The translations under genes and the position numbers were made by a program. From Chrysophaeum taylorii (Eukaryota > Sar > Pelagophyceae > Pelagomonadales > Pelagomonadaceae): a DNA stretch of 64,000 nucleotides. Position 1 is the stretch's first letter; each line of letters starts with the position of its first letter. The stretch covers positions 62,001 to 126,000 of the forward strand of contig JAQMWT010000230.1 of the NCBI GenBank assembly GCA_029834535.1, given 5' to 3'. Below, in pieces: positions 19,109-34,167 of this stretch. The notes below the pieces were generated by a model, which saw only the letters and a program-made list of their open reading frames with translations, ran no database searches and was not told where the DNA came from.

Positions 19109-21396
19109 TTATTTGCTACTGGCCTCGCCCAAACGTAATAATACCGCGATAGGGTCTTAGGTAACTCATCATCATCAGACGAAAAAATTGTTATTGTACA
19201 ATTCGTAAAATTGTACAGTACAGGGGGGTCCAGAAGATCAAATAACATCTATCTCTTGAGAAGAGGCCCGTGCTCCCGTTCGCACCCCACCCCCTCTTCG
19301 CAGTCGACCTTTTTAAACACCTCTGAGCGGGATACCTCCATTTCCCATGTGCATCCCACTTGTTTCCCCCCAAACCCTATTATTGCCACCCACCCCACTC
19401 TCATAAACAGCCGACATTTAAATACCCTTCAAATAGCGTAAAAGCACATATAGCTGCAGTAATGATGTGTTTGCTGGGGATTTGAGTTGCATACCCTCGC
19501 AGGATTTTTGTAGATTATTTTTATTATGGTTAGCAACTCCCAGGCTCAGAGAGCCAGGATCTCTAGGATGGGTGATCGCTGAAAGGAAGAGAAACACAAG
19601 ACAAAAAAAGACCGCAGGGGAAGGCGATGGTGAAAGTAAAATGACAAAGCAGACGGGAGAAAGGCGATAACGCAGTGAGTGGCATGGTGAGAGCAACAAA
19701 AAGAGCGCATGGTCGGGTGAGGGCGCGCGAAAGAGGCCTAGAACAGAGGGGACAGCACAATGAACGCAGAGCACGTAGATCGGGAAGGGGCCAGAACGAG
19801 TGTTTTTTTGGGGTAGAGAGATGGGAGTGGTTCAGAGGCAGGGCCGCCGCGATCGCCGTCGCCGCCAATACCACCTATGTTATGGGGCTATCCAAGTCCG
19901 CCGCTTGTACTCAGGCGGGGGAATGATCCCGATCCCGCTCAGCGCAGGTTGAACGCGTGTGGTGGAAAGAGGAAAGCGAACCAACAGCACTGAAATGGAG
20001 AAATGGAGAAGGAGATGGGGCAATACAAGGAGGCCGCACGTACGAAGGCGGGAGTGAAATCCCGCTTAGCGCAAGTTGTGGAAACAGAACTTGAAGCCAA
20101 AACGCAAACCTATGTACAAACGGGGGAGACGCTAGATCACTTTTATCCGGTCGACAGGCAACCAAAGGTAGACGCTTGCCCCACAAAAACGAGGGAAATT
20201 TTCTCGGAGTATTTCCAGCGTGGGAGCGATGTCTGCGAGTAGCTTGGCGCAAGGCTTGGGCAGTAGTTGCTCCGCGTTAAGTACGTCCGTACCTCTGTTA
20301 GTTGGATTGTGCTCAGAGAGTATCATACTAATCCTGGCTGCGACGCTCGTAGGGAAACAAACGTCCTTCGGGAGCGTTATGATGCACATCGATACCAAGA
20401 AGCGATCAAATATTGCCGTGCCAGGTGGCGCCTTTGCCTTATTCCTACTCGAGATTGCCACGAAGACACGTTTTATTTTTTTGTTTGTAGCGGTGCCGGT
20501 AATCAGAAGATCTCCAGAGAGCTACACTATTATGTGTGCGACACTGGAACATTTTCACGCCTATCTCTACACGAGGGTTTTCTCTCCGTAATACGGCTTT
20601 CCCTCTTTCTTTCCTTTCCTTACCCCTTCCGCCCCTTTTATCTCAGATTATGAAGAACCCAATCTGGAGCTCTTTTCCAACATGGAGTAGGCCTCCAGGT
20701 GCGTACCGTCGGGTACGGGGTTTTCTGTTTTATTAACAGAGACTTCGTTCCCCGTTGTCAGTGTAAACGCTTCTATGGGACCTAATGTCCTTAAGGAGTT
20801 AGGGCCTAAATCCCTACCTTGTGTAGTAGCATGTGACAAGCGGAATGGTCTGTACACGCCTAAGACTGCACGCAGTCTCTACCATGTACTCGGAGAGGGT
20901 CAAATCTCTCCAGGTTATGGGCCCAGATGCGTAGGTGTGTCAGCCCAACTGTGTTGTACGTCTAAATCGAATGATCAATTTACGCCTGATCACGAGTACA
21001 ATGCGATAATGTGTTTGGCGGTGGTCTACTGTACATATTTGTTGTGTGACGGTATGTGCCCACCAGTCAAATTGGTTTGTGACCGAGTTGGGTCGGTCAC
21101 TGGTCACATGCACTCGCATAACCAATAAAATTAAAATTTTTCCTATACAAGCTGCGGAAACTTGTACGGTTTTTTACTTCCATTCCCCAACAAAAGACTG
21201 ACTGCTCGAGAACTAATCCATTCTTCAGTCTCAAGTCACCCTGTTTTAAATAGCATGTTGATTTGTTCGGTCTTGTCAATAAGCCCACGTTTAAAATAGC
21301 GTACTGTACATAGAACCCGCACTTGAGAAGCCCTTCATTCTTATGTGTCGAAGCTGTCTATCAATCCTCTAACCTATCCCTTAATAGGTCACAATC
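19109..21396. other. Non-coding flank of the transposon island, possible 5' LTR/leader of the copia element
   Basis: Base composition shifts towards AT after about 19.2 kb. I find only short, unrecognised ORFs, such as 20220-20591 (plus, hydrophobic) and 20132-20461 (minus). The last 750 bp before gag hold an AATAAA at about 21122 and TATA-like TTTTAAATAGC near 21243, as expected for an LTR or leader, but I could not find a matching 3' copy, so LTR limits are not assigned. Confidence 0.4.
19280..19316 (-). repeat. Divergent copy of the GTCGACTGC(T/G)AAGAGGGG repeat
   Basis: Read on the minus strand, the sequence is TTTAAAAAGGTCGACTGCGA followed by AGAGGGGGTGGGG. It matches the start of the 121-bp repeats with a few changes. 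A weaker match (ATTTAAATGTCGGCTG) lies at about 19405-19421 on the same strand. Confidence 0.6.
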
Positions 21397-22170
21397 ATGT
21401 CAAAACAAAAAACAATATCTACCACGGATATCTACAAACAAGAACAAATCCTCGTTGATAAAATTAACGCAGGATTGCGTTTCCAAGATAATTCAACCAA
21501 GGTGAGCTTGCAAATTGAAGCGCTTCGCAGGCATATGACAGGTCCATGTGTGGACGCGTTATTCTGCTTCGATTCATATGAAGCTTACACCCGGAATGCT
21601 CCGGAATATAATCAACTTCTTGAACAAGAAGTTGATATCATCTTCGCTCAATGGAAAGCTGAAAAAATTAATGATTTAAATTTACCTGATGAAGATGCCC
21701 TGCCCGAACATTTAAAGACTTGGCACGTCAACTCTTCCCATCAACTAACAGTTGATGCCCGTAATAATCTTGAACGACTTTACTACCAAGAGTCGTACAA
21801 CCTTGTCCGTCCTGAATTAAATGAGGAAGTTAAACATGTCCTCACTTTATTAGATACCCGATTTCCTAAATCAATTGTGTATGATTCATCTTTAACTAAC
21901 ATATCCTTTACAGGTCTCTCTAATGCCAATTGGATCAAACACTGCGAAACTTATGCTGGTTTCTTGTACACATTCTTTAACCTTGAGTCCCAGGAAAAGC
22001 CCGCTCTCGCTACGTGGCCTCAACTAAAGAAAATTTATGCAATTACTGCACATCCCAATAAATTACGTGCTGTAAAGCTTTTAGCCTATCATTACTATGA
22101 GACAGTGTCTTGTACAGATGTAACTGAGCTTAAATCTCAGTTTAATCGAATGTCTCTAAATGTTAATTAG
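21397..22170 (+). CDS. Gag-like protein of the copia element, N-terminal part
   Basis: The 257-residue ORF begins MSKQKTISTTDIYKQEQILV and is hydrophilic and helical. It ends at a TAG (22168-22170), after which the same frame stays open for about 80 codons (QLLAFQSQAKQLHNDEASIQ), so the stop looks like a point lesion or a readthrough stop. The sequence has no obvious zinc knuckle. Assignment as gag rests on its position directly upstream of pol. Capsid-forming function is inferred. Confidence 0.6.
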   Translation: MSKQKTISTTDIYKQEQILVDKINAGLRFQDNSTKVSLQIEALRRHMTGPCVDALFCFDSYEAYTRNAPEYNQLLEQEVDIIFAQWKAEKINDLNLPDEDALPEHLKTWHVNSSHQLTVDARNNLERLYYQESYNLVRPELNEEVKHVLTLLDTRFPKSIVYDSSLTNISFTGLSNANWIKHCETYAGFLYTFFNLESQEKPALATWPQLKKIYAITAHPNKLRAVKLLAYHYYETVSCTDVTELKSQFNRMSLNVN

Positions 22171-22346
22171 CATGCCCACGTATTTGTCGAACAACTCCTT
22201 GCCTTTCAATCTCAGGCAAAGCAATTACATAATGATGAAGCATCAATCCAATTTAATAACTCCATAATCACTCTTTTAAAGCTCACGAGGAGATCTTCCG
22301 TCTATATGCTAATCCCTCGGGTTAGGAGCGCTATTCTCAATCTTTA

Positions 22347-23330
22347 TTGGAATGGTGTAGACTCTACGAGACACGCTCTAGTAACAACTCGAATCACGAT
22401 CCCGAATTGTTAAAGCTAGTTGATCCTAACGACGTTCGTCCACTATTGGAATTCTTGTTAAAGATATATAATGAGACAAAGTTTTCTTCTAACCGACGCT
22501 CGGATAAACCCGCTTCCTGGATCCCTTACATCCCTGGTACTACCGCTACCAAGCCACCTAAGGTATTATTGATGGATACTATTCATCAATCCCACGACTC
22601 TCTAAACAACGCTTACTCGTTGTTAGCCACTGTAGCTGGACAGTCTGGCTTCAACGCTCGTAAGCTTCGTAATGCAAAAGATAAAGCATCGACAATCTCA
22701 CCCCGTGACACGTCGTACTATCGTTCACCCTCAAATTATAACGTCAGAGGTACCAGCTTCGATCGTCCTATCTACTCATCTTCCTCTAACCGTAATGCAC
22801 GCTCTAATATGTCTCTTATGGACCGGGCTACTTATCAAGTTGATCGTCTTCGCCACCTGTTTGGTAAATTACAGGAAGCGAATCCCAATCCTTCAACCGA
22901 CTCTAAAATGGTACAGGAGGAAATGAAAAGCTTTTTGAGTACCCTCTGGACAACAGCTTCTCAAGCTTCGACACAGTCCTTAGATCCTGATGAAGCCACC
23001 CAAGTTCATCTCTACTTATCTCGAATTGATACTATGTCCAATACCATATCGAACCTCTTGGAAGCCGATAAGGAATCTCTTGTTTCAGAAGAAAAGTATC
23101 AAACTGAAACATCTGCTCCTGAAGCGTCCCCCAGTGATGCGGAGCAGAGGGGGACTGCTGATACAGAGAAAATGTTCCACACTTTCCTGTCCATTAAAGA
23201 TGATAAAATCGATAACATCCCTCAGCCGCTATTGCAGCACATAAATACTAAAGCTCAGAATGCTATTGTTCATCGTCAAGCTCGGGAAACTTCTTCGCAC
23301 TCTGAGCTCCCCAGTAGTCCTAACTACTAA
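22347..23330 (+). CDS. Gag-like protein, C-terminal part, -1 frame relative to the first ORF
   Basis: The 327-residue frame continues the gag region after a frameshift at about 22310-22340; protein-like sequence already starts near 22322 (SQSLLEWCRLYETRSSN). It is Ser/Asn-rich (YRSPSNYNVRGTSFDRPIYS) with a helical C-terminal segment (YLSRIDTMSNTISNLLEADK). No CCHC knuckle is visible. The stop at 23328-23330 is followed by a (TGTC)n run and then the nested insertion, so the natural continuation into protease may have been displaced by about 1.85 kb. Confidence 0.6.
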   Translation: MEWCRLYETRSSNNSNHDPELLKLVDPNDVRPLLEFLLKIYNETKFSSNRRSDKPASWIPYIPGTTATKPPKVLLMDTIHQSHDSLNNAYSLLATVAGQSGFNARKLRNAKDKASTISPRDTSYYRSPSNYNVRGTSFDRPIYSSSSNRNARSNMSLMDRATYQVDRLRHLFGKLQEANPNPSTDSKMVQEEMKSFLSTLWTTASQASTQSLDPDEATQVHLYLSRIDTMSNTISNLLEADKESLVSEEKYQTETSAPEASPSDAEQRGTADTEKMFHTFLSIKDDKIDNIPQPLLQHINTKAQNAIVHRQARETSSHSELPSSPNY

Positions 23331-23360
23331 TCGACAGATGTTTGTCTGTCTGTCTGTCTG

Positions 23361-23481
23361 TTTGTCTTTAAATGTCGACTGCTAAGAGGGGGGTGTGTGT
23401 GGGGAGCATGAAGGATGTGGGTGGGTTTGTGGGGTATGAGGGATGTGCCTGGCGGGCGGAGATAAGTACGCGGGACCTAGT
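23361..23481 (+). repeat. 121-bp direct repeat, left copy
   Basis: Begins TTTGTCTTTAAATGTCGACT, continues with a G run and GT-rich sequence, and ends CGCGGGACCTAGT. It lies directly after a (TGTC)n tract. Confidence 0.9.
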
Positions 23482-24031
23482 CGGGGTCATCGCCGAGGCG
23501 TGGGGCAGGCGAAGAGAGGACGGGCCCTGCCCGTAGGTCGTACGCATGCTGCCGCCGGACGTATGTGCGACGAAGGGTGACGTCCTGCTGGGATCGGGCG
23601 GCCTGGGTGGGGTTCCCCGAGGCGGCGACATGGGTGAGGGCGGTGAGGGCACAGCGAGCCCGGCCTAATGCGTTGGCGATCCCCCTCTCACGGTAGATGC
23701 GGCGAGTTTGGGCCGCCTTTGCCTCTGTGAAGTTGGCGCAGCCGCTTGCCACCCAGGTTCGCGCAGCGATGTGCTCTGCGCATGTTTGGGCGAGAGCGTG
23801 GCACGCCGCACTGGCCTCACCGAAGGCACCAAAGACGAGGCCGGCGACGGTGCCGTAGCTACGTAGCCGCTGTTCGACAGGGCCCAAGAAGCCAGGCGGT
23901 GGTGCTGTACCCGGCTGGGGGATGATGGCGTCGATGCCGCGGGCGTGAGCGAGGTATTCGGAGTGGACTTGCGCTGCGCGCCGATCGACAGGCGACGGGT
24001 GGGAGGTATGGAGGGCGTGGGCGGTGTACAA
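23477..24031 (-). pseudogene. Fragment resembling the C-terminal end of an algal/dinoflagellate-type retroelement protein
   Basis: The minus-strand 184-residue ORF is Ala/Arg-rich. It contains YGTVAGLVFGAFGEASAACH, then AARTWVASGCANFTEAKAAQ and RRIYRERGIANALGRARCAL. This pattern (FGAFGE... then a helical Ala/Arg region) resembles C-terminal tails of non-LTR retroelement ORFs that I associate with microalgae. No RT core is present, so it is at most a fragment. Its GC content is far higher than the surrounding copia sequence. Confidence 0.4.
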
Positions 24032-24050
24032 CGAACCCCAAGCGAGGGTT

Positions 24051-24171
24051 TTTGTCTTTAAATGTCGACTGCTAAGAGGGGGGTGTGTATGGGGAGCATG
24101 AAGGATGTGGGTGGGTTTGTGGGGTATGAGGGATGTGTCTGATGGGCGGAGATAAGTACGCGGGACCTAGT
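24051..24171 (+). repeat. 121-bp direct repeat, right copy
   Basis: Same length and boundaries as the left copy with about four substitutions (for example GTGTGT to GTGTAT and CCTGGC to TCTGAT). It is followed by the Helitron-type helicase remnant. Confidence 0.9.
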
Positions 24172-24179
24172 GAGGGTTT

Positions 24180-24790
24180 GTCCCTCGATTTAGGGTAAGT
24201 ATCAGGTAGGCCCGCGAGCCAGGCAGGCAATGATCCCCCAAGCCGTCTACAACGACCTCGCAGACTGTTTCCACGACCCGCGGCGGCTCTTTCAGCGCGC
24301 CATTCTCACGCCCCGTCGAAACGATGTTGTTGATGCTGACAACGCGCGCATGACCGCGGCCTTTTTTTCCCGGAGACGAGGCGTCGGAGTTCTTTTCGGC
24401 CGACTAGGTTGGGTCGGAAGACGACGCCTCGCTCTCAAGAGTCGAGTTTTGAACTCCCTGACAACCAACGGCATGCTGACTTTGATCGCGAGCTTGAAGT
24501 CTTCGCAACCTCGACCCGTCGCACGGCCACTGCAACGGTACCAGATACATGATCGATCGTGTCGTTGTCACCGAGGCTCCTCCAACCTGTATCCCTTAAG
24601 GCCCGCCGACGCCAAACGATCACCAAGAGCCAGGGCCAGACGCCCCGCGAGGTCGGCGTCCTCTTGCCCAAGCCCGTCTTCTGCCACGTCCAGCTCTACG
24701 TGGCTCTCTGTCGATCGGCAATCCCGAGGATATGCTCTTCTGAGTCGACGACTCCACCCTACCCCACACGTGCTGCGCAATACCGTTAAG
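24180..24790 (+). pseudogene. Broken Pif1/Helitron-type helicase C-terminal fragment
   Basis: Plus-strand pieces in shifting frames match the C-terminal part of Pif1-like helicases carried by Helitrons. Near 24240-24345: DCFHDPRRLFQRAILTPR then NDVVDADNARMT (family: RAILTP.N..V..iN). Near 24455-24500: NSLTTNGM. Near 24610-24720: ITKSQGQTPREVGVLLPKPV then FCHVQLYVALCRS (family: T.nKSQGQTl..VGvyLp.pVFsHGQLYVAlSR). At least two frameshifts break it, so it is inactive. The rest of the Helitron was not seen in the window. Confidence 0.75.
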
Positions 24791-24829
24791 CCCCCTCCCG
24801 GCGTCTACACGCGCACTATAGGTTAACTT

Positions 24830-25190
24830 ACTGGGACCAGGTGAACTTACTGGAACCAGGTGAACTTACTGGGGTTAGAGATTGGGACTAGGTGAACTTA
24901 GAGACCAGGTGAACTTACTGAGACCAAGTGTGAGCTTACTGGCTGGGCTTTTAGAGTAAACTCAAAGCTTAGCGGCGTGTGCGGATCGAAGCAGCTTAGA
25001 TTGGCGGGGGTGAGAGCGACGAGCTCGAAGGAGAGTGGGGTGAGTGGGTGCGGGTTTACGCCGAACTTACTGGGGTTAGAGATTGGATTTACACTGAATT
25101 TGCTGGGGTTAGAGATTGGGACTAGGTGAACTTAACAGGAACAGGTGAACTTGCTGGGGTTAGAGATTGGGACTAGGTGAACTTACTGAG
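24830..25190 (+). repeat. Imperfect minisatellite, unit about GGTGAACTTACTGGGACCA
   Basis: About ten variants of GTGAACTTACTGG alternating with GGGACTAGGTGAA or GGTTAGAGATTGG occupy this stretch, including a more diverged middle part. The right edge runs directly into the protease ORF, whose apparent start (GTG at 25177) lies within the repeat, so the original 5' part of that ORF has been lost or displaced. Confidence 0.8.
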
Positions 25191-26022
25191 ATGCACTTGT
25201 TTAACCAATGAAGATAATGAAGATGGTACAGATCCCCCTGTGTTGCTACCAAAATTAAATACCTGTTTTACACTCGTCGTTGTGCCTTCCGAACAAACGC
25301 AAAGTTTCATGACACAGTACGTGTTTGGTCAAAGCTCAGCACATGCCTGTTATGCAACAATGCTTAAACTGTACAACGAGTACAATTTGCCGCTAATGAC
25401 TACGCCGGGATATGCTGACACATGTGCTTCTCAACATGTAATTAACTTTAAACGTTATGCTGATCCTATCCACATCGTAAAGCTACTCGAGTCTCTATCA
25501 CCTGCTATCCAGACTGCTACGGATACACAGAGAATCACACATGCTATGATTATAAGGACCGTCATTCCCGCTCTGCCAAAGCATCCAAATGTGGGATATG
25601 TAAAGCTAGACGTTGCGCTTTTTCTACCCAAGCAAAACGACCATAACGATCCCGATCTGCACATCATCAGTATGACTCAATGGGGAGAAGATAAACTTGG
25701 TATACATCTTTATGGAGTTGAATTTAAAGGACAATCATCTATCCAGAGTAAAATTGATGATAATGTCAAGATTACTTTGTTTAGACTCAGTAACCTGTTG
25801 CCAACTCTACCAATTTACTCGCTACAACAAGCAAAAGCGCGTAAAATGGAACTTCGCTCACTACAGTTCAGACTATGTGCTTTTAATGAACAGCGCGAAA
25901 TGCTCAAACTATATTCCACCCTCATGGAACGAGTAATTTACGTCCCATGGCTTAAAACCATCCTGGAGTCAATGCATTCGCAGCTGCCTTACATACGCAA
26001 GCACTTCCCACCTCCTGTATGA
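25177..26022 (+). CDS. Retropepsin-like aspartic protease region of the copia pol
   Basis: The readable frame begins inside the minisatellite, so the start is artificial. Residues about 80-95 read GYADTCASQHVINF, aligning with the copia protease active site D-[ST]-G-A-[ST]-x-H but with Cys in place of the Gly. About 60 residues later LDVALFLPKQNDHN then LHIISMTQW matches the second family motif (L..VL.vP....nLiS). The enzyme would process Gag-Pol. Loss of the active-site Gly suggests inactivity or an unusual variant. The ORF ends at TGA overlapping the ATG of the next ORF (ATGA, 26019-26022). Confidence 0.65.
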   Translation: MNLLRCTCLTNEDNEDGTDPPVLLPKLNTCFTLVVVPSEQTQSFMTQYVFGQSSAHACYATMLKLYNEYNLPLMTTPGYADTCASQHVINFKRYADPIHIVKLLESLSPAIQTATDTQRITHAMIIRTVIPALPKHPNVGYVKLDVALFLPKQNDHNDPDLHIISMTQWGEDKLGIHLYGVEFKGQSSIQSKIDDNVKITLFRLSNLLPTLPIYSLQQAKARKMELRSLQFRLCAFNEQREMLKLYSTLMERVIYVPWLKTILESMHSQLPYIRKHFPPPV

Positions 26023-27780
26023 CGCAAGGTGACAACACGTTTGCTCCACACAGTAACTTCACTCCTAGCCCACGAACACTTACAGTAACTTTACTTTGCT
26101 CTGGGATGTCCACTCCTGCATTCTTGGCTTGCGCTTCTAATGACTTGCAAATCAACATCAACGTTAAAGTTCTTGTTGAGAGCGACGACAATATCACGCA
26201 CATGCTACGAAGACGTTTTGGTAATTCCATCGAAGTTTTCCCATCCTTACCTAATTTTTTGACATATCTCCATCGAGCATCAGACGTTGAACGTGCACGA
26301 TATTTCACTGACATAGTGGAATTGACATCACCATGCACAAATCGCAACATAATCAATTGGAGATCCATTTCCACCTTCGAGCGCGATATGGATGATTCTT
26401 TGTTCCCAAGTGCTCTAAGTGTACTTGAGCTTTTAAAACCGCTCGTTCTCTTCATGGAAATGACTCCACCACACTCCGCATCATACGAAGATCATATACG
26501 AGATGCCAATCTCATCTTCTCAACGATGCACTATACGGTGGACATATGTGACCGATTTCCATGCTATTTATGTGGAGATTATCAAGCCAGAGAAAGATGG
26601 ATCCTCGTCGCACGCAAAAAAAACACCGGCCCTCTCGATCTGCTTTCATGGCCTAATAAACGAGTCACTTCCTTTCTGGATATTGCAGACCACGCTAACT
26701 CCATCAGTCGCAAGTTAATAGTCGACGAACCTTGGACGCAGGTCTTTCCTGACATACCATTTGTGTCCACACCTAAAACCTACAATATTTTCGGTCGTAC
26801 AGGATCCGTGCGCTTAACTGTGACTGAGCTTGAAACCTTAACTATGCTGTTCCTGTCGTCTGCACTCTAATAAAACAGTCGAACATCCAAAATGAAATGG
26901 AGGGCATTTCTAACTTTCGCCTGGGATTCTTGACTAATTCAAGAAAACCACTTGCTTGCATGAGATCCCCTATTGAACTCAAAGCTTTTGTGCTCCTCTA
27001 TAATACTATGGGACGATTATTCCCTAAATCTATCACATTACCTGCGTCCTTTCGCATTACAACTATCGAATCTAACCAACCATCTCACAGGTTATTCTTA
27101 AATAAATCCTCTACTTCATCCATCATTTACATCACTGGTGGAAGACATACAGGCGGAGACATAACAGTTTCTAACTCTTCCTCTAAATACCAGGCACACA
27201 TCAATGCTTTTGGCGAAACCTACGCCCTTTTAACACACGATGCCGGAATCGATAAGACTGCTTCTCTCGAACCTGTTACCGGTTTTCTTTGGCTTTGCCA
27301 AGCATACCATCATAATGAAAATCAAGACACGCGTCGTCTAGTACAAGCACTGGTTTCATATACCTCTCCTGTATTTCACGATTCTTTTGTCTTCTACCCT
27401 CAGGAAAATCGTCTTGAATTTATCGACAAAATTTTTGCTTTAAGTGACATGCATTTGTCCCAAAGCAGATATTTGGGTTTTATAACATCAAGCGATAGGA
27501 AGATGGGTGCCAAAGTTCACTCTATATATACTCCCACTCCTACCATTCGTGGATTTGCTAATATGCTCGTGTACGATCCACGACTCGATCACATCCGACA
27601 CTACTCAACTCGCGAATTGGCACGCGCCAATAACTTCACAGCGTACCAAATCAATTTTCTTTTGTCTTTGTCCCCGGACCTATGCTGTGATATCATCGCA
27701 AATGCTATTCCAGCTGGAAAATATCATACAATTTATAAACATTTGTGTCAGCTTGTCTATGACTTGCGTACATTAACGCT
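26019..27780 (+). CDS. C5 cytosine DNA methyltransferase domain within the retroelement (two reading frames)
   Basis: Motifs appear in family order. Motif I: VTLLCSGMSTPAFLACA. Motif II: VKVLVESDDNITHMLRRRFG. Motif IV with the catalytic Pro-Cys: DIVELTSPCTNRN. Motif VI with Glu: LVLFMEMTPP. Motif VIII Q-x-R-x-R: GDYQARERWILVARK. The first ORF stops at 26870. The frame -1 relative to it (ORF from 26897) continues the presumed target-recognition region and then shows motifs IX/X-like IRHYSTRELARANNF and DIIANAIPAGKYH near 27590-27730. The domain sits between protease and integrase. The product would transfer a methyl group from SAM to cytosine C5, perhaps on element DNA. The frameshift at about 26830-26890 either splits the enzyme or requires recoding. 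Activity is unknown. Confidence 0.72.
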
Positions 27781-29812
27781 ATCACCATCGTTTGACCCTG
27801 ATCACGCTCCTCTAACCAAAAACTATAGGTCAACCTTCTTCACAAATATATTCCCAACAGATACATCTTTAACATTACACCAGAGTTCCATTACTATGCC
27901 CTACATCTCCAATAAAAAACTCTTATGTTGTGATACTATCACTTCTAACCACGAACTTACTTCTTTTCATACTGATTCAGTAGCTCATGCTTTCCTCTCT
28001 AACATCTTATCCGCAGATATATCATCTCCTACTAAAGAAAAACAAATACCCTTTATAACGCCAAGACAGCTCCATGAGAAGCATGCGCCCTTCGATAAGA
28101 AAGTCCATGCCAGGGGCACCCTTGCATTTCGAGATGCGCAACAACGAGCCACCAATTTTCACAACATTCACCATTCCAGTGATTCTCAAGCCATAAAAGC
28201 TGTTCAGGTTATTGCCAATCCTGGACACCACCCATCTGACGTACCCTACCGTAAATTCTGTGTGGATTGTACGATTCATAAAAAACACTTTCCTCATCCA
28301 CACCACCTTATCAAGCAACCATCATTCGAAAAAAAAATTCAACCTGGTGAAGCTTGGGCATGTGACGGTGGTTACGTCTCTGTGCTCTCGGAATGGGGAT
28401 CCTTTCGACATATCATTGTCTTCAAGTGTCTCATTTCTAAATTTCTGTTAGTGTACTTTTGTCGTAGCACTAACTCCACCGAATTTTGTAACGCCCTTGA
28501 GTTTGTCCGCAATTTTTGCTCTACTTATGTTCATGTACAACTAAAACAAATCTATTGTGATTCCTTTAAACCCTACTTATCTCAGCATGTTACAACCCCC
28601 TTCCGTGTGGAACATGGTATTTATATGTCCGCGTCCCCCCCTTACTTACATGTCTTTAATCATGAAGTCGAAGCCGCTGTTGGTCACATAGCCACTGCCG
28701 CGTCTACACGACTCCGGCATATGCTTAATGTATCCTATAAAGGTCACCCCCTAACAGATCCGGCACCACACTACCCGTGGGCTGTTATACATGCTATCCA
28801 ATCATATTATCTCCTCCCTAACGTTTTCCTCGAACGTATTTACAATAAAGTCCTAAGCCCCCAAAAAGTTTTGTTAGACCAATGTAATGTTCCCCAACAA
28901 GACTACCTCAAACCATTTGGTTATGTTTGTTATTTGCATTTGGAACCTAACGAATTACATAAATATGAACCCCGATGCCGTCCCTACATCTACTTATGCG
29001 GTGCTATCGTTATAAACCCTTTAATAACACCCCATGTTAATCATTTAGCCGATGTTGTCCTTAATCCTAAAAACGGTCAAGTCCGTGTTTCCTCTAAACT
29101 GACTTTTCCCCATCTTATTTCTAAATCTCCTCCTGATTATGAACTGCATCCACCTCCCGCACATTCACCCGACATTCCCTTCTCTGTTCACAGCACCCCC
29201 AATGATGCGGCGCAGAGGGGGAATGCTATGCCTACCGACATCGACCATGAGAGGAGGACTCCATCTTTTCATCTCCATGCTCTCTCTCCCGCTCCCGCTT
29301 GTGCTCCAGCTGCTCCTGCACCCGCTACTTCCGCCACCACACCTACATCTGAAGTGTCTTCCGACACTCTGCCACTTTTACCATCTTATCGGTCTCTCTA
29401 TTCCCAGGATGTCCTCTGTCTCACCCGTGGTCCTCATCACCCTCAGCCTCGTCGCAAAACCAATCTCAAGGATGTTCTTACTCGCATTGCTTCGCCTACT
29501 GTTGCCGCTTATAAACAAGCCGGTGGTGCGCTTGCCGACTTCAAGTATGACCTCTCCAAGCAGTACATAACATTCTGCGACCCCACCCTCCACTCCCTTC
29601 ATATCGCTCATGGCATCCACTGGACGGCTATACCTCCAGAGGGGGGATTTACACCATCCTTCATCACCATGTGCACGAAGCGATTTCACAGTCCTCTTCC
29701 GTTATGTGTCATAGGAGCCATAGCCACCCATCGCCTGATGCTCCCCATGTCCACTTCTACGACGACGTCAACCTTGCCGATTTTCACCTTCCTCAAGCTC
29801 TCGTTCATTTAG
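26897..29812 (+). CDS. Copia pol: methyltransferase C-terminus plus integrase
   Basis: The 971-residue frame first carries the end of the methyltransferase (to about residue 290) and then integrase. A zinc-binding HHCC module is visible (FHNIHHSSDSQ ... GHHPSD ... KFCVDCTIHK, about residues 418-465). The catalytic core has Asp in EAWACDGGYVSV, Asp in QIYCDSFKPYLS and Glu in FNHEVEAAVGHIATAA, consistent with a DDE triad. The C-terminal region is Pro/Ala-rich with a PSDAEQRG-like short repeat (TPNDAAQRG). Integrase inserts element cDNA into host DNA in the nucleus. The frame overlaps the RT frame by about 170 bp from a G GGG GGA heptamer. Confidence 0.85.
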   Translation: MEGISNFRLGFLTNSRKPLACMRSPIELKAFVLLYNTMGRLFPKSITLPASFRITTIESNQPSHRLFLNKSSTSSIIYITGGRHTGGDITVSNSSSKYQAHINAFGETYALLTHDAGIDKTASLEPVTGFLWLCQAYHHNENQDTRRLVQALVSYTSPVFHDSFVFYPQENRLEFIDKIFALSDMHLSQSRYLGFITSSDRKMGAKVHSIYTPTPTIRGFANMLVYDPRLDHIRHYSTRELARANNFTAYQINFLLSLSPDLCCDIIANAIPAGKYHTIYKHLCQLVYDLRTLTLSPSFDPDHAPLTKNYRSTFFTNIFPTDTSLTLHQSSITMPYISNKKLLCCDTITSNHELTSFHTDSVAHAFLSNILSADISSPTKEKQIPFITPRQLHEKHAPFDKKVHARGTLAFRDAQQRATNFHNIHHSSDSQAIKAVQVIANPGHHPSDVPYRKFCVDCTIHKKHFPHPHHLIKQPSFEKKIQPGEAWACDGGYVSVLSEWGSFRHIIVFKCLISKFLLVYFCRSTNSTEFCNALEFVRNFCSTYVHVQLKQIYCDSFKPYLSQHVTTPFRVEHGIYMSASPPYLHVFNHEVEAAVGHIATAASTRLRHMLNVSYKGHPLTDPAPHYPWAVIHAIQSYYLLPNVFLERIYNKVLSPQKVLLDQCNVPQQDYLKPFGYVCYLHLEPNELHKYEPRCRPYIYLCGAIVINPLITPHVNHLADVVLNPKNGQVRVSSKLTFPHLISKSPPDYELHPPPAHSPDIPFSVHSTPNDAAQRGNAMPTDIDHERRTPSFHLHALSPAPACAPAAPAPATSATTPTSEVSSDTLPLLPSYRSLYSQDVLCLTRGPHHPQPRRKTNLKDVLTRIASPTVAAYKQAGGALADFKYDLSKQYITFCDPTLHSLHIAHGIHWTAIPPEGGFTPSFITMCTKRFHSPLPLCVIGAIATHRLMLPMSTSTTTSTLPIFTFLKLSFI
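29641..29647 (+). promoter_or_regulatory. Candidate -1 ribosomal frameshift heptamer G GGG GGA
   Basis: In the integrase frame the codons read gaG GGG GGA, the X XXY YYZ arrangement. Slipping back one base moves translation into the RT frame, which is open from here (GGIYTIL...EAISQ). Integrase reading would otherwise end at 29812. A downstream pseudoknot was not assessed. A single-base loss in an originally fused pol is the alternative. Confidence 0.45.
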
Positions 29813-31944
29813 TTTCTGAACATGCTCACGCCTTTCAAGTTCCTCCCGCTCAATATGCTTATGCTTTGTTCACGTCCCACTCCATTTTGGATCATAATGA
29901 CGCTTCTTATGGTGCTTCCGAGCCTCATCTCTCCGCCATTGAAGACTATATCACCGTGCAATCGCATTACATTGAAGCCCACCTTAGTGATGCTCCTCTA
30001 CTAGTTGTTCAACTCATCGAAGATCCCGATCATGCTCATCTGCACGACAATATCGCTTCTTATGCGATTACTCATCTGACGACGACTCACGACCCCAGCA
30101 CGGTTGGTTCGGACGAATACAAGATTCAAGCCAAAGATATCAAAATTGATGAATATGAGTTGACCTGCCTCAAAGGTCTCTCAGACGCTGATCGCAAAGC
30201 TTATGTTGCCGCCATCTCCAATGAGATTTTTGACATTGTTAAGTTTGGCTGCTTTAAACTAGCGCTGCCAATGGTCAACTCAAGGCCTATTGACACCCGT
30301 CTCGTCCTACGTATAAAAGCCAACGCTGCTGGTAAGTACATTAAACATAAAGCACGCCTGGTACTACGAGGATTCTTAGCCTCTCTGGGCACCGATTTCT
30401 TCAACACATTCATCGCTATGGCACAGCTTACCGGCATCCGTTGTGTTTTGGCGATAGTAGCTCATCTGCGACTTCCTGTCTATCATGTCGACGTCCCTAA
30501 CGCTTTTGTTCAAGCTCCCATCGATTCGCATGTCTATGTTATACTGCCACAAGGCGTTTACCTTCTCGATCCCGAAGATACTAAATACCAAGGCCGCCGT
30601 CTCCCAAAGCTACTTAAATCTCTCTATGGATTGCGTCAGAGCCCTACCCTTTGGAATCAAACCATAAACAGTTTCTTTGATTCCTTAGGCTATACACGAT
30701 TTCGAACAGACACATGCATTTACGCTAAAGTCCAAGCTGACGCTACATTTCTAATTTGCACGCTCTCAGTAGACGACGTCGTCATTACTTGCACTTCGGA
30801 AACTCTACGTCGTGAATTCCAGCAAGCCCTGAAAAAGGAATACTCAGTCGACACCTTCGAGGAAGTCCATACTCTCCTAGGCATGCGCATAGCGCGTACA
30901 ACAGATGGCTCTATATCACTGGATTGTCAGGCTAAACTTGACGCATTGTTCGAAGAGTACCCCATTTTAATGCAGTTACGTCCCACTTCTACACCGATTT
31001 CACCATCAGCCACGTATAAAACTGGAGAGCCATCTTCTGATATGGACAAGTTCATCCTTCATACCTTCTCTACGCTACTCGGCAAGCTCACGTGTGTTCA
31101 ATTGGCCTGTCGCCCTGATTTATCCCAAAGCCTTAGTCGTTGCTCTCGAGGAATGCATAATCCAGCATTTCTGCATGTTCAAGTACTAACAGGAACGCTC
31201 CGCTACTTGCGTAAGCCCGAAAATCGTAATCTTCGCCTCTGGTACTACTCTGGTTCTTCCGCTCTAATGGACCATCTTCGACTTCTTATCGGTAATCGTA
31301 CTGACATGGTCACCATGTTGGACTACGCTAAAGAGCAAGTTAATTCAGGTAATTTTGATCCACTGGTCGCATTCGTTGATGCCGATAATGCACCTTCTTA
31401 TGAACAAGACCGCAAATCTACAACCGGCTATGCTATCTTTTTGTTTGGTTCTCTCATCACTTGGAAGTCTAAGCTACAGCCTATAACAGCTACTTCTACG
31501 CATGAGAGTGAACTTATCGCCCTCAATATGTGTGCCGATGATGTGGTTTGGTTACGCAAATTGCTAACGGAAATGGCATTCGTTATAAATCCTCACTTCT
31601 ATCTCCACCAACCTTCAGGGAAAGATCTGCTACTAGATTATGATGCTCACGACAATCCCTTCCCATCGGACATGTCGTACATACGTAACAGTCCTATACT
31701 TGGAGATTCGGCCTCTGCTATTCATCTATCAAATAACCCCGACAGCGCGACTAAGGCTAAAGCTATCAGCACACGCTGGTCCCGTATACGCGACTTCGTA
31801 CACTTAAAACGAATACGCCTACATCATGTTTCCGGTACCCATAATATCGCCGATGGATTTACCAAACCCTTTGGAACTCCACTCTTCAGCAGATTTCGCA
31901 CGTTACTCGGCTTACAACAACCCATAGTTCCACAAGATGGTTAA
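29641..31944 (+). CDS. Copia pol: reverse transcriptase and RNase H
   Basis: The first convenient initiator in this frame is a GTG at 29671, but expression probably depends on the upstream frameshift. RT begins near 30290 with TRLVLRIKANAAGKYIKHKA and ARLVLRGF (family: tKWVFKIK...KARLVa.Gf). It continues through YHVDVPNAFVQAPIDSHVYV, LLKSLYGLRQSP and the catalytic Asp pair LSVDDVVIT (SVDD instead of the usual YVDD). RNase H shows VAFVDADNAP, DRKSTTGYAIFLFGSLITWK, HESELIAL and LGDSASAIHLSNN, so its Asp/Glu residues are present. The C-terminus ends with HNIADGFTKP, typical of copia. The RT frame is uninterrupted for over 700 codons, which argues for recent activity. Confidence 0.93.
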   Translation, partial: GGIYTILHHHVHEAISQSSSVMCHRSHSHPSPDAPHVHFYDDVNLADFHLPQALVHLVSEHAHAFQVPPAQYAYALFTSHSILDHNDASYGASEPHLSAIEDYITVQSHYIEAHLSDAPLLVVQLIEDPDHAHLHDNIASYAITHLTTTHDPSTVGSDEYKIQAKDIKIDEYELTCLKGLSDADRKAYVAAISNEIFDIVKFGCFKLALPMVNSRPIDTRLVLRIKANAAGKYIKHKARLVLRGFLASLGTDFFNTFIAMAQLTGIRCVLAIVAHLRLPVYHVDVPNAFVQAPIDSHVYVILPQGVYLLDPEDTKYQGRRLPKLLKSLYGLRQSPTLWNQTINSFFDSLGYTRFRTDTCIYAKVQADATFLICTLSVDDVVITCTSETLRREFQQALKKEYSVDTFEEVHTLLGMRIARTTDGSISLDCQAKLDALFEEYPILMQLRPTSTPISPSATYKTGEPSSDMDKFILHTFSTLLGKLTCVQLACRPDLSQSLSRCSRGMHNPAFLHVQVLTGTLRYLRKPENRNLRLWYYSGSSALMDHLRLLIGNRTDMVTMLDYAKEQVNSGNFDPLVAFVDADNAPSYEQDRKSTTGYAIFLFGSLITWKSKLQPITATSTHESELIALNMCADDVVWLRKLLTEMAFVINPHFYLHQPSGKDLLLDYDAHDNPFPSDMSYIRNSPILGDSASAIHLSNNPDSATKAKAISTRWSRIRDFVHLKRIRLHHVSGTHNIADGFTKPFGTPLFSRFRTLLGLQQPIVPQDG

Positions 31945-32017
31945 TCATTACCCTCCATTATGTCCGAAATGACTTTGAACTAACCCTACTATGCGCAGGA
32001 TACTGGCTTGCTAAAAT

Positions 32018-32314
32018 GTGAAATGCTACATAAAATGTGATGTGGAGATTCCTCTCATGATGAATCCCACTAAAAACAAAGATGCTGCGAGCCGACGCCA
32101 CTCTACCATGAACTGTGGTCGCGGTGGTGGTATACTGTCACTGTCTCCACCTTTTAATGCTCTAACTCCAAGCGTTGCACCGACTAGTTCCCCTAATCGG
32201 AAACATCAAACCTATTTGTCGGTCGCGCAAGGACATCAATCTACGCCCGTGACGCCCAAGGCGCCCAAGACAGCTGCCCAACAACAGTCTAAAAATCGCA
32301 AGCAGCAAGTCTGA
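32018..32314 (+). CDS. Small basic ORF in the transposon island, uncharacterised
   Basis: The 98-residue frame (an inner Met at about 32060 gives MNPTKNKDAASRRHSTMNCG) is rich in Lys, Gln, Ser and Pro, with low complexity at the end (TPKAPKTAAQQQSKNRKQQV). It directly precedes the next ORF on the same strand and may be the N-terminal piece of the same gag-like gene or just leader sequence. No domain is recognised. Confidence 0.3.
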   Translation: MKCYIKCDVEIPLMMNPTKNKDAASRRHSTMNCGRGGGILSLSPPFNALTPSVAPTSSPNRKHQTYLSVAQGHQSTPVTPKAPKTAAQQQSKNRKQQV

Positions 32315-32351
32315 GTATTTCCTGCTCAAACATTGTAAATTTGACGTATTA

Positions 32352-33560
32352 GTGATGATGTCCGGGAACGTTACTGCTCTTGGCTCATCACCACCCAACT
32401 TTCTTATTCCGCAACACAAGGACCCCCAGTGCTGCCTTAAGTCTTTGCAGCAGCTGCATACGGAAGCACAACAGACAGAGTTTGTAGACAACGTACAATA
32501 TCTCAGTTCATTGTTGTGTGTCAAGACTAAGCGTATCCGAAACGCCCCCGCTATATATCCTAACGAGGGAATACGTCTGCATCGCTTCCCACCCATTAAA
32601 GGGGTTGTCAAAGTACATGTGACGTGTACAAAGTGCTACAACAAAACTGATATCCCAGGCACTCCAGTCGTGCTCATCATATGTAATGAAGATGAACTTA
32701 AAACTGACCGGATTCGCCAAATTATTGAGGATCATCTCGCGTCTGAGCAACACGCATCCCACTGCTTTGACGTACCGCGTCCTTTCTTCCTGTTGATTTA
32801 TGCGCTGTGCGATCGGTCACACCATGGGATAGCCTTAATTCGCAACAGTCAGCAGCCATTCCAGCTGTCTTGTTTTAATGAGCCGGCTGCTCACACTAGA
32901 GCTATAATCCTCCGCCTTGGAAAGTCAATTGCTATTAATAAGCAGCTCAAAGATGCAATCATGCAGACTGCGACATTCCTTAAAGTTGATGCCTCTAAAA
33001 TCATTGTTAACCTTGACGATAGCACCATGCTTTTACTTCAGTTGCCCTTTATCTCGAGTGTAAATCTTGAGATTCTTGTAGCAGCTTGGTCTTTGTTACA
33101 TTCTGTTGAAGATAAAGTATGTGTAGTAACCAACCCGGATGAGCTGCTTAACGTGCTTGTCGAACACTTCGTTAACGATGTTTCCCACCAATTTAACGCA
33201 ATCTCCTCCGAAACGTTACCGCCAATGCTTAATTATTTTCGTCAACTATCACCTGTACAGCAAACTGCCTTTAAAAATGTGCTAATCCAGGTTGGCTACC
33301 CTTCGGACATAATTGATGTCTTTTCAGATGATACTTCTTTTGAAGATGTTTCACCAGAGCCGATCGACAATCCACCCGCTGAACCCACGCCAGATAAAGC
33401 TAACGACGATATGGCTGAATCTTTACATCAATTAAAAGAAGAGGTTCGGTCTTTATCCTCACGTCTCACTAATACCGAACAGCAATTGATGGCGCGAGAT
33501 CAACAACTATCGCTTGCATTAACATCTCTCACGCAGATGCAAGAGACTTACGAAAATTAA
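32352..33560 (+). CDS. Second gag-like ORF (402 residues), probably from another retroelement
   Basis: The protein begins MMMSGNVTALGSSPPNFLIP. It contains a helical middle (AINKQLKDAIMQTATFLKVD, LEILVAAWSLLHSVEDKV), an acidic/Pro linker (SPEPIDNPPAEPTPDKANDD) and a C-terminal coiled coil (LKEEVRSLSSRLTNTEQQLM). I see no enzymatic motif. Organisation and several segments parallel the decayed ORFs at 59.1-60.2 kb (short hydrophobic helices, then a Ser/Pro linker, then coiled coil), so I place both in one gag family. It is followed by an inverted copia remnant, so its own pol is absent. Confidence 0.5.
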   Translation: MMMSGNVTALGSSPPNFLIPQHKDPQCCLKSLQQLHTEAQQTEFVDNVQYLSSLLCVKTKRIRNAPAIYPNEGIRLHRFPPIKGVVKVHVTCTKCYNKTDIPGTPVVLIICNEDELKTDRIRQIIEDHLASEQHASHCFDVPRPFFLLIYALCDRSHHGIALIRNSQQPFQLSCFNEPAAHTRAIILRLGKSIAINKQLKDAIMQTATFLKVDASKIIVNLDDSTMLLLQLPFISSVNLEILVAAWSLLHSVEDKVCVVTNPDELLNVLVEHFVNDVSHQFNAISSETLPPMLNYFRQLSPVQQTAFKNVLIQVGYPSDIIDVFSDDTSFEDVSPEPIDNPPAEPTPDKANDDMAESLHQLKEEVRSLSSRLTNTEQQLMARDQQLSLALTSLTQMQETYEN

Positions 33561-33724
33561 AACACTCAAGTGATTGAGAACATCAAGCATGTGTCTCTAT
33601 TAGACAACATCTTGTCAAGTCTTCAGATGCATCAGGACACCATAATCCCGCCCTCTCCTAGGTACACGAATCCCACGGGGGAAATGGATCCAAACGTGGC
33701 GATCAAGCATCTATTGAGTAATAA

Positions 33725-34167
33725 GTGCTTTTAGAGAATGTCCGCGTCCGCGACCGAAAGCTTGTTCTTGACTGCAATGGCGAGCAAGAGGCGCGCAGTT
33801 GCAAGCATAGCGGTCGGTGGGGAGGTAGCATAAAATCAATACCAACTCTAGCGAGAAAACCTGCTTGGGCGACGAGGCGAGCTTTGTGCCGATCGGGAGT
33901 GCCATCAGCAAAGTACTTGATCTTGAACACTAACTTGGTGGAGATCGAGGAGAGGCCAAGGGGCAGTCTTTCCAATTGGAATGCGCCATCAGAATATAGT
34001 CGGGTGGAGTCCACATGCTCGATCTTATCTTCGGGACTCAGACACTCGAGTTCGACGATTTTCATTCCCGGTATATTATCGGCCGTAGCGAATTGTAGAG
34101 CGACGTGCTCAACGTCCTTTTGGTCGTAGTTCATCACTTCCTGGAGGATGTCTACGTTGGTGACCAC
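33725..34167 (-). pseudogene. Copia reverse transcriptase N-terminal fragment
   Basis: The minus strand reads STKLVFKIKYFADGTPDRHK then ARLVAQ (family: tKWVFKIK...dG...r.KARLVAqGf). After a frameshift it continues in another frame as TAMLATARLLLAIAVKNKLS then VADADIL, which matches the helix leading to the first catalytic Asp region. The palm with the DD pair is missing because the element ends. Confidence 0.7.

Follow-up and report, generated by a model that had tools for sequence, protein, structure and literature searches.

A C5-methyltransferase-like domain carried in Pol by a multi-copy Ty1/copia lineage of the alga Chrysophaeum taylorii

Retrotransposons of the Ty1/copia type in the genome of Chrysophaeum taylorii carry, between protease and integrase, a domain that resembles C5 cytosine methyltransferases (MTases), and we show by sequence comparison that this C5-cytosine-MTase-like domain is a standing part of Pol in a lineage with many copies. 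The analysis set out from a window of 64,000 nucleotides (positions 62001-126000 of contig C230; the assembly comprises 70.8 Mb in 697 contigs), for which an earlier note, made from the letters alone, had claimed a copia element with a C5 MTase between protease and integrase. That arrangement is borne out, and the element in the window is, by its sequence, a damaged Ty1/copia retrotransposon. We recognize three families, namely alpha, to which the window copy belongs, alpha2, a nearer relative, and beta, a more distant one. Integrase lies upstream of the reverse transcriptase (RT) in the window as well as in a long beta frame (the integrase profile rve stays below its cut-off in both), and the RT is of the RVT_2 type (E=2.2e-39 in the window, 1.6e-38 in beta), a combination that rules out a Gypsy-type Pol. 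The open reading frames (ORFs) scanned gave no match to the tyrosine recombinase profile PF00589, the integrase being of the rve type instead.

Resemblance of the domain to C5 methyltransferases

The sequence blocks pointed out in the earlier note, CSGMSTPAF, SPCTNRN, LFMEMTPP, QARER, and RELARANNF with ANAIPAG, which we take to be motifs I, IV, VI, VIII and IX/X-like, respectively, are all present in the translations and in that order. The same succession, with the Pro-Cys of motif IV, is found across the families, and about 320 amino acids separate motif VIII from motif IX. In a beta frame of 1952 amino acids (L059), PF00145 matches at 1.1e-7 and 32.1 bits, above its cut-off of 22; it is followed by rve, at 0.0061 and thus short of its own cut-off, and then by RVT_2 at 1.6e-38. 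A profile built from all three families also recovers P0001, an MMETSP protein of 392 amino acids and the one public relative among the 8000 candidates listed, at E=1.6e-89. This protein is 41% identical to the alpha copy L020 over 360 amino acids, matches the beta locus L073 (tblastn, 6.7e-7), and reaches 4.4e-4 and 20.2 bits with PF00145, just below the cut-off of 22. Against the sequences of the PDB, the three-family profile ranks the C5 MTase 8yf3 first (4.7e-4), followed by entries of M.HhaI at 0.12-0.28 that are interspersed with Rieske proteins at 0.05-0.8; the latter look like chance matches. The beta profile alone finds 8yf3 at 0.046 and 8c56 at 0.069.

Several results weigh against this assignment. 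The profile comparison that the earlier note had proposed as a check gives only E=0.074 and 12.9 bits for the window copy, below the PF00145 cut-off that the beta relative exceeds, and only 4 of 21 alpha and alpha2 members match PF00145 at E<=1, the best at 0.0035. The combined alpha and alpha2 profile found no match in the PDB search, none of alpha, alpha2, beta and P0001 matched an MTase in NCBIfam, and a direct BLAST comparison between the window MTase and the beta loci gave nothing significant. Two protein searches with one sequence returned nothing at E<=0.001 (among 6392 candidates in one and the 8000 listed in the other), and the 25 pattern matches in IMG/VR included no relative. Since its PF00145 match is so poor, the window copy alone is weak evidence, and the case rests on beta, P0001 and the profile match in the PDB.

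Recurrence, linkage to Pol and selection

The three families together account for 294 scored MTase places in the 70.8 Mb assembly: 130 of 1157 candidates for alpha (70-100% identity), 89 of 1429 for alpha2 and 75 of 717 for beta. The place lists of alpha and alpha2 are distinct because the two families are only 47-48% identical. A motif IV pattern for alpha and alpha2 with the codon of the catalytic Cys left free occurs at 407 places (backward control 3), and with Cys specified at 403 (backward control 0); the 407 places are not independent cases, as the copies are related, and the count omits copies with neighbouring changes.

Linkage to Pol was assessed for the best 150 of 1670 RVT_2 candidates, with the MTase sought 3-7 kb away on the same strand. 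An alpha or alpha2 match or a listed motif IV lies upstream of at least 60 of these 150 RT matches, and in the downstream control of none (0/150). On contigs C1-C116, which the motif list covers fully, the MTase is found at this upstream distance for 27 of the 36 best RT matches. Among the nine unlinked ones, those on C98 and C66 lie near the contig start, the C41 contig stops short of where the MTase would lie, and the upstream DNA holds a beta domain on C58 and a 5'-truncated MTase on C110; the upstream DNA of C17, C39 and C54 is unread. On C70 the stretch read, 3.5-5.3 kb upstream of the RT, is repeat DNA with no MTase.

The domain is also under purifying selection, about as strict as that on the integrase, as pairwise ratios of nonsynonymous to synonymous substitution rates (dN/dS) show. 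For the alpha core, 34 of 38 loci were kept, stop-bearing or short-match copies being dropped, which favours intact ones; median dN/dS in bands of rising synonymous divergence (dS) is 0.14, 0.10, 0.11, 0.10, 0.07 and 0.04. Ten long alpha copies give 0.10 for motifs I-VIII, 0.08 for the middle region, 0.10 for motifs IX-X and 0.26 for the linker that follows, while the alpha integrase stands at 0.09 (6 of 10 copies kept). The corresponding values are 0.11 with 0.23 in the middle for alpha2 (6 copies), and 0.13 (10 copies) with 0.12 in the middle (5 of 10) for beta.

These observations bear directly on the suspicion that the motifs resemble those of an MTase by chance, or stem from a host gene that landed in one copy, which the score of the window copy alone (E=0.074) would favour. 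A chance match is ruled out by the alpha2 and beta families, P0001, linkage and selection, and an insertion into one copy by the linkage figures (27/36 against 0/150). With beta and P0001 both matching PF00145 and the domain recurring, linked and selected across copies, we consider either version extremely improbable. The segment thus does not behave as a later insertion missing from related elements, the finding that the earlier note had named as decisive against itself.

Comparison of the alpha and alpha2 profile with the beta profile gives E=0.012 and a probability of 3.6%, and that of P0001 with beta gives E=2.8e-4 and 41%; BLASTP of alpha ORF2 against the beta ORF finds the integrase at 3.6e-17, and within the MTase only the motif IX-X region, at 0.018. 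While this profile evidence is weak, the common position between protease and integrase and the common long middle region suggest a single capture that predates the parting of alpha and beta. Separately, in L027:6079-7974 (C641), a single frame of 632 amino acids joins an alpha2 MTase fragment directly to the last part of an alpha protease, which points to recombination between the families or to nesting.

Expression layout and anatomy of the window copy

The junction between protease and MTase was surveyed in 21 rows that represent 19 distinct copies, two of them appearing twice. In 13 of the 19, protease and MTase share a reading frame that a single UGA interrupts; the junction is frame-shifted in four (the window copy, L010, L011 and L013) and unreadable in two (L012 and C428). 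A frameshift between the two domains, as the window copy had hinted, was dropped in view of the 13 in-frame copies. The exact junction site occurs at 121 places with UGA and likewise at 121 when the stop codon is left free, so that no other codon is seen there, and the third positions neighbouring the UGA vary. Because an in-frame UGA separates gag-protease from MTase-integrase-RT at 121/121 sites, readthrough probably yields the alpha MTase as a portion of Pol. In alpha2, UGA-CUA (L038, L060) or UGA-AUA (L064) precedes the MTase, and L027 is shifted; the same-frame protease was judged by eye in L038, and the alpha2 stop pattern says nothing on conservation, as it matched one place only. The beta copy L059 has a gag frame that briefly overlaps that of Pol, and a single ORF holds its protease, MTase, integrase and RT.

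The interval first assigned to the window element, 25177-31944, lies inside it, but the element is longer, running from a left long terminal repeat (LTR) at 20513 to 33656, the end of its similarity, with gaps, to the copy C523. The GC content around it is 0.42-0.50, compared with about 0.62 outside it in the window. All its features are on the forward strand. The left LTR (20513-20912, 400 bp) is 90-97% identical to most LTRs of the copies C523, C317 and C68, and less so to the right LTRs of C317 (89.5%) and C68 (87.9%); the right LTR of the window copy was looked for within the window and not found. Adjoining the left LTR, GGTTATGGGCCCAG (20913-20926) is a probable primer binding site, complementary to an anticodon arm that we take to be initiator-tRNA-Met-like. 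This arm plus its following bases occurs at 8 places in the genome, and ARAGORN called no tRNA at the one arm place read. The gag region of ORF1 (20927-23316) is collinear with L029 and uninterrupted in C523; in the window copy, the last part that is still open spans 22326-23330, and the gag ORFs scanned have no Pfam match.

Gag is parted from protease by a foreign insert (23317-25215), the largest of the gaps, which is dispersed repeat DNA and not the element's own, its flanks being contiguous in C523. It contains short tandem units, and related DNA lies near other elements and host genes (L021, L027, L030, L035, L068, L070 and others). The retropepsin-like protease that ends ORF1 (25216-26019) was identified by eye from its motif ADTCASQH, with no Pfam match, and is followed by the UGA (26020-26022, then CGC) that is one of the 121 exact sites. 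The MTase domain occupies 26064 to approximately 27780, with motifs I, IV, VI and VIII, the long middle region and the IX/X-like motifs. Beyond it lie the integrase core (28340-28645; rve E=0.0022, below cut-off), an SH3-like part (28892-28996; PF25597 E=6.6e-5, below cut-off), the copia-type RT (30274-30957; the RVT_2 match given above), an approximate RNase H region (31300-31850; motifs by eye, no Pfam match) and ORF3 (32253-33560), which has a coiled-coil-like end and is open in the window copy. ORF3 recurs behind RNase H in the copies read (L028:6277-8019; 582 amino acids in C641), with nothing over a Pfam cut-off. Rfam has no match within 20400-34000. The window copy is dead: besides the insert, it has a frame break within the MTase at 26855-26888 and another one near 29.55 kb.

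Direct LTR pairs of about 350-415 bp are present in 3 of 10 copies (C523, C317 and C68), which differ by 16/396, 15/394 and 37/328 aligned bases. C641 has a further 176-bp repeat that was left out of this count, and the six other copies show no pair. As for target site duplication, ACTCC flanks C523 on both sides, no match was seen by eye at C317, and the element ends of C68 are not defined for this comparison.

Host, possible function and known systems

The genome has 84 matches to the light-harvesting profile PF00504, which indicate that the host is a photosynthetic alga; the one match read, in L068, is fucoxanthin-like by eye. We presume such a resemblance to fit a stramenopile such as a pelagophyte, and the label "probable stramenopile", which the DNA had been given from its letters, is compatible with it. 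Two tandem arrays of such genes (G000:C88:35406-41267 and C539:24843-30127) have equal or nearly equal scores and a spacing of mostly about 1.2 kb.

A genome search with PF00145 gave 57 places (123 scored of 474 candidates). Scored beta places account for 36 of them, and the sequence assigns another 3 (L005, L073 and L074) to beta. Only two were seen outside elements, 16 of the 57 being unread. One is a DNMT5-type gene on C621, of which L002 holds the MTase (7.9e-18) and weakly matches RING, and the adjoining L069 holds SNF2 (2.3e-14); it appears intronless, as one long open frame. The other is a stand-alone MTase in L001 (4.1e-19), DNMT2-like by eye. DNMT5 is elsewhere an enzyme of the maintenance type. 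It is conceivable, though we think it improbable, that new cytosine methylation in this alga comes mainly, perhaps entirely, from the copia-borne MTases; if so, retroelements of its own would seed its methylome, which DNMT5 would then copy.

What does the element gain from the domain? The earlier note had suggested that the element may label its cDNA, or escape or influence host silencing. We would give roughly even odds to a scheme in which the MTase, carried in Pol and made by readthrough, methylates the element's own cDNA and thereby aids the survival of the cDNA or the insertion. Ribosomes on alpha transcripts would make gag-protease up to the UGA and, on occasional readthrough, continue into MTase-integrase-RT-RNase H. 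Within the particle or the integration complex, the MTase would then be placed alongside RT and integrase and methylate cytosines of the new double-stranded cDNA before or during integration, and new insertions would enter the genome already marked, a mark that the host DNMT5 could copy. The selection seen on the domain would in this scheme retain the enzyme since cDNA or new insertions survive better. Such cDNA methylation is in line with the proposal made for SymbioDIRS-Dnmt3 of Symbiodinium (PMC5890265). The composition of the elements may count against it. Their observed/expected CpG ratio is 0.88-1.03, compared with 1.31-1.39 in the host stretches of the window, and each of the three LTR pairs has one CpG transition only. 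With CpG not below expectation and a single transition per pair, there is no clear sign of CpG decay and no clear trace of self-methylation, and these data neither show nor exclude methylation of the elements.

The missing decay would fit a real MTase whose target is RNA, either the element's own or its tRNA primer. DNMT2 acts on tRNA, and the primer binding site next to the LTR pairs with an initiator-tRNA-like arm. RNA methylation has also been raised for the DNMTs of LINE elements (PMC5890265). Yet the closest solved match, albeit with weak scores, is a DNA C5 MTase, and the domain lies on the integrase side in Pol, so we regard an RNA target as unlikely. We rate at a similarly low level an action in trans, with the host genome or competing elements as its targets, that would alter silencing and leave the element's own cDNA aside; hundreds of copies in a DNMT5-bearing host would suit it, but membership in Pol would tie the enzyme to the particle. 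A little less likely again is that catalysis has been lost and Pol retains the domain for the binding of DNA or a cofactor, or for its structure. Its great divergence and the motif VIII of beta, which conforms only loosely to QxRxR, would agree with such a loss, but Cys is kept at 403 of the 407 motif IV places, and the Glu of motif VI and the Arg of motif VIII are nearly always retained in the alpha and alpha2 alignment.

Returning to methylation of the element's own cDNA, an MTase of their own might let the elements mark their own new copies, and the reasons for which a parasite would bear the silencing enzyme of its host could be tested directly in this small genome, where a DNMT5 is present as well. 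The copia superfamily would, with three families and hundreds of copies, join a short list of retrotransposons that carry DNA methyltransferases (DNMTs). Capture of DNMTs has been published for elements of the LINE, DIRS and Gypsy types (PMC5890265), and retrotransposons with adenine or cytosine methylases have been described from Gypsy and DIRS clades in several groups, including stramenopiles (PMC6338049). With reference to PMC5890265, another paper assigns members of DNMT3 to "LTR Copia and DIRS" elements in streptophytes and in dinoflagellates (PMC12344493), and by this wording a copia case may be meant. A survey of DNMTs in SAR, in the part drawn on, does not mention a DNMT inside a copia element (PMC9998398), and the titles and abstract openings listed by searches of the open-licence PMC literature include no description of a stramenopile copia element with a DNMT.

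With the C5 MTases of the PF00145 type, such as 8yf3 and M.HhaI, the domain shares the order of motifs I, IV, VI, VIII and IX/X-like as well as profile matches, and it differs from them in its strong divergence, its long stretch between motifs VIII and IX and, for alpha, a score below the Pfam cut-off. The in-frame UGA before pol has a counterpart in Tca2 of Candida albicans, also a Ty1/copia element, which has no MTase and in which the UGA splits gag from pol, whereas here it splits gag-protease from MTase-integrase-RT; by itself, the junction of Tca2 did not bring about readthrough in yeast (PMC2194720). SymbioDIRS-Dnmt3 and SymbioLINE-Dnmt of Symbiodinium resemble the present case in a DNMT domain under purifying selection and in many retrotransposon copies, and in SymbioDIRS-Dnmt3 the DNMT shares an ORF with the RT, a further likeness. 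However, these are a tyrosine recombinase DIRS element and a LINE, respectively, while the element here is copia, and the Copia elements described there from Symbiodinium are without a DNMT (PMC5890265). The SymbioDIRS-Dnmt3 domains methylated CG in yeast, and the LINE and Gypsy DNMT domains gave no signal there, a result called inconclusive (PMC5890265). In KnitGypsy-Dnmt3 of Klebsormidium nitens, as here, the DNMT is part of the Pol polyprotein of an LTR element; that element belongs to the Gypsy superfamily and its enzyme to the Dnmt3 clade (PMC5890265), whereas ours is copia. Carriage of a DNMT-like domain by copia elements across three families would be a new form of the known capture of DNMTs by retrotransposons.

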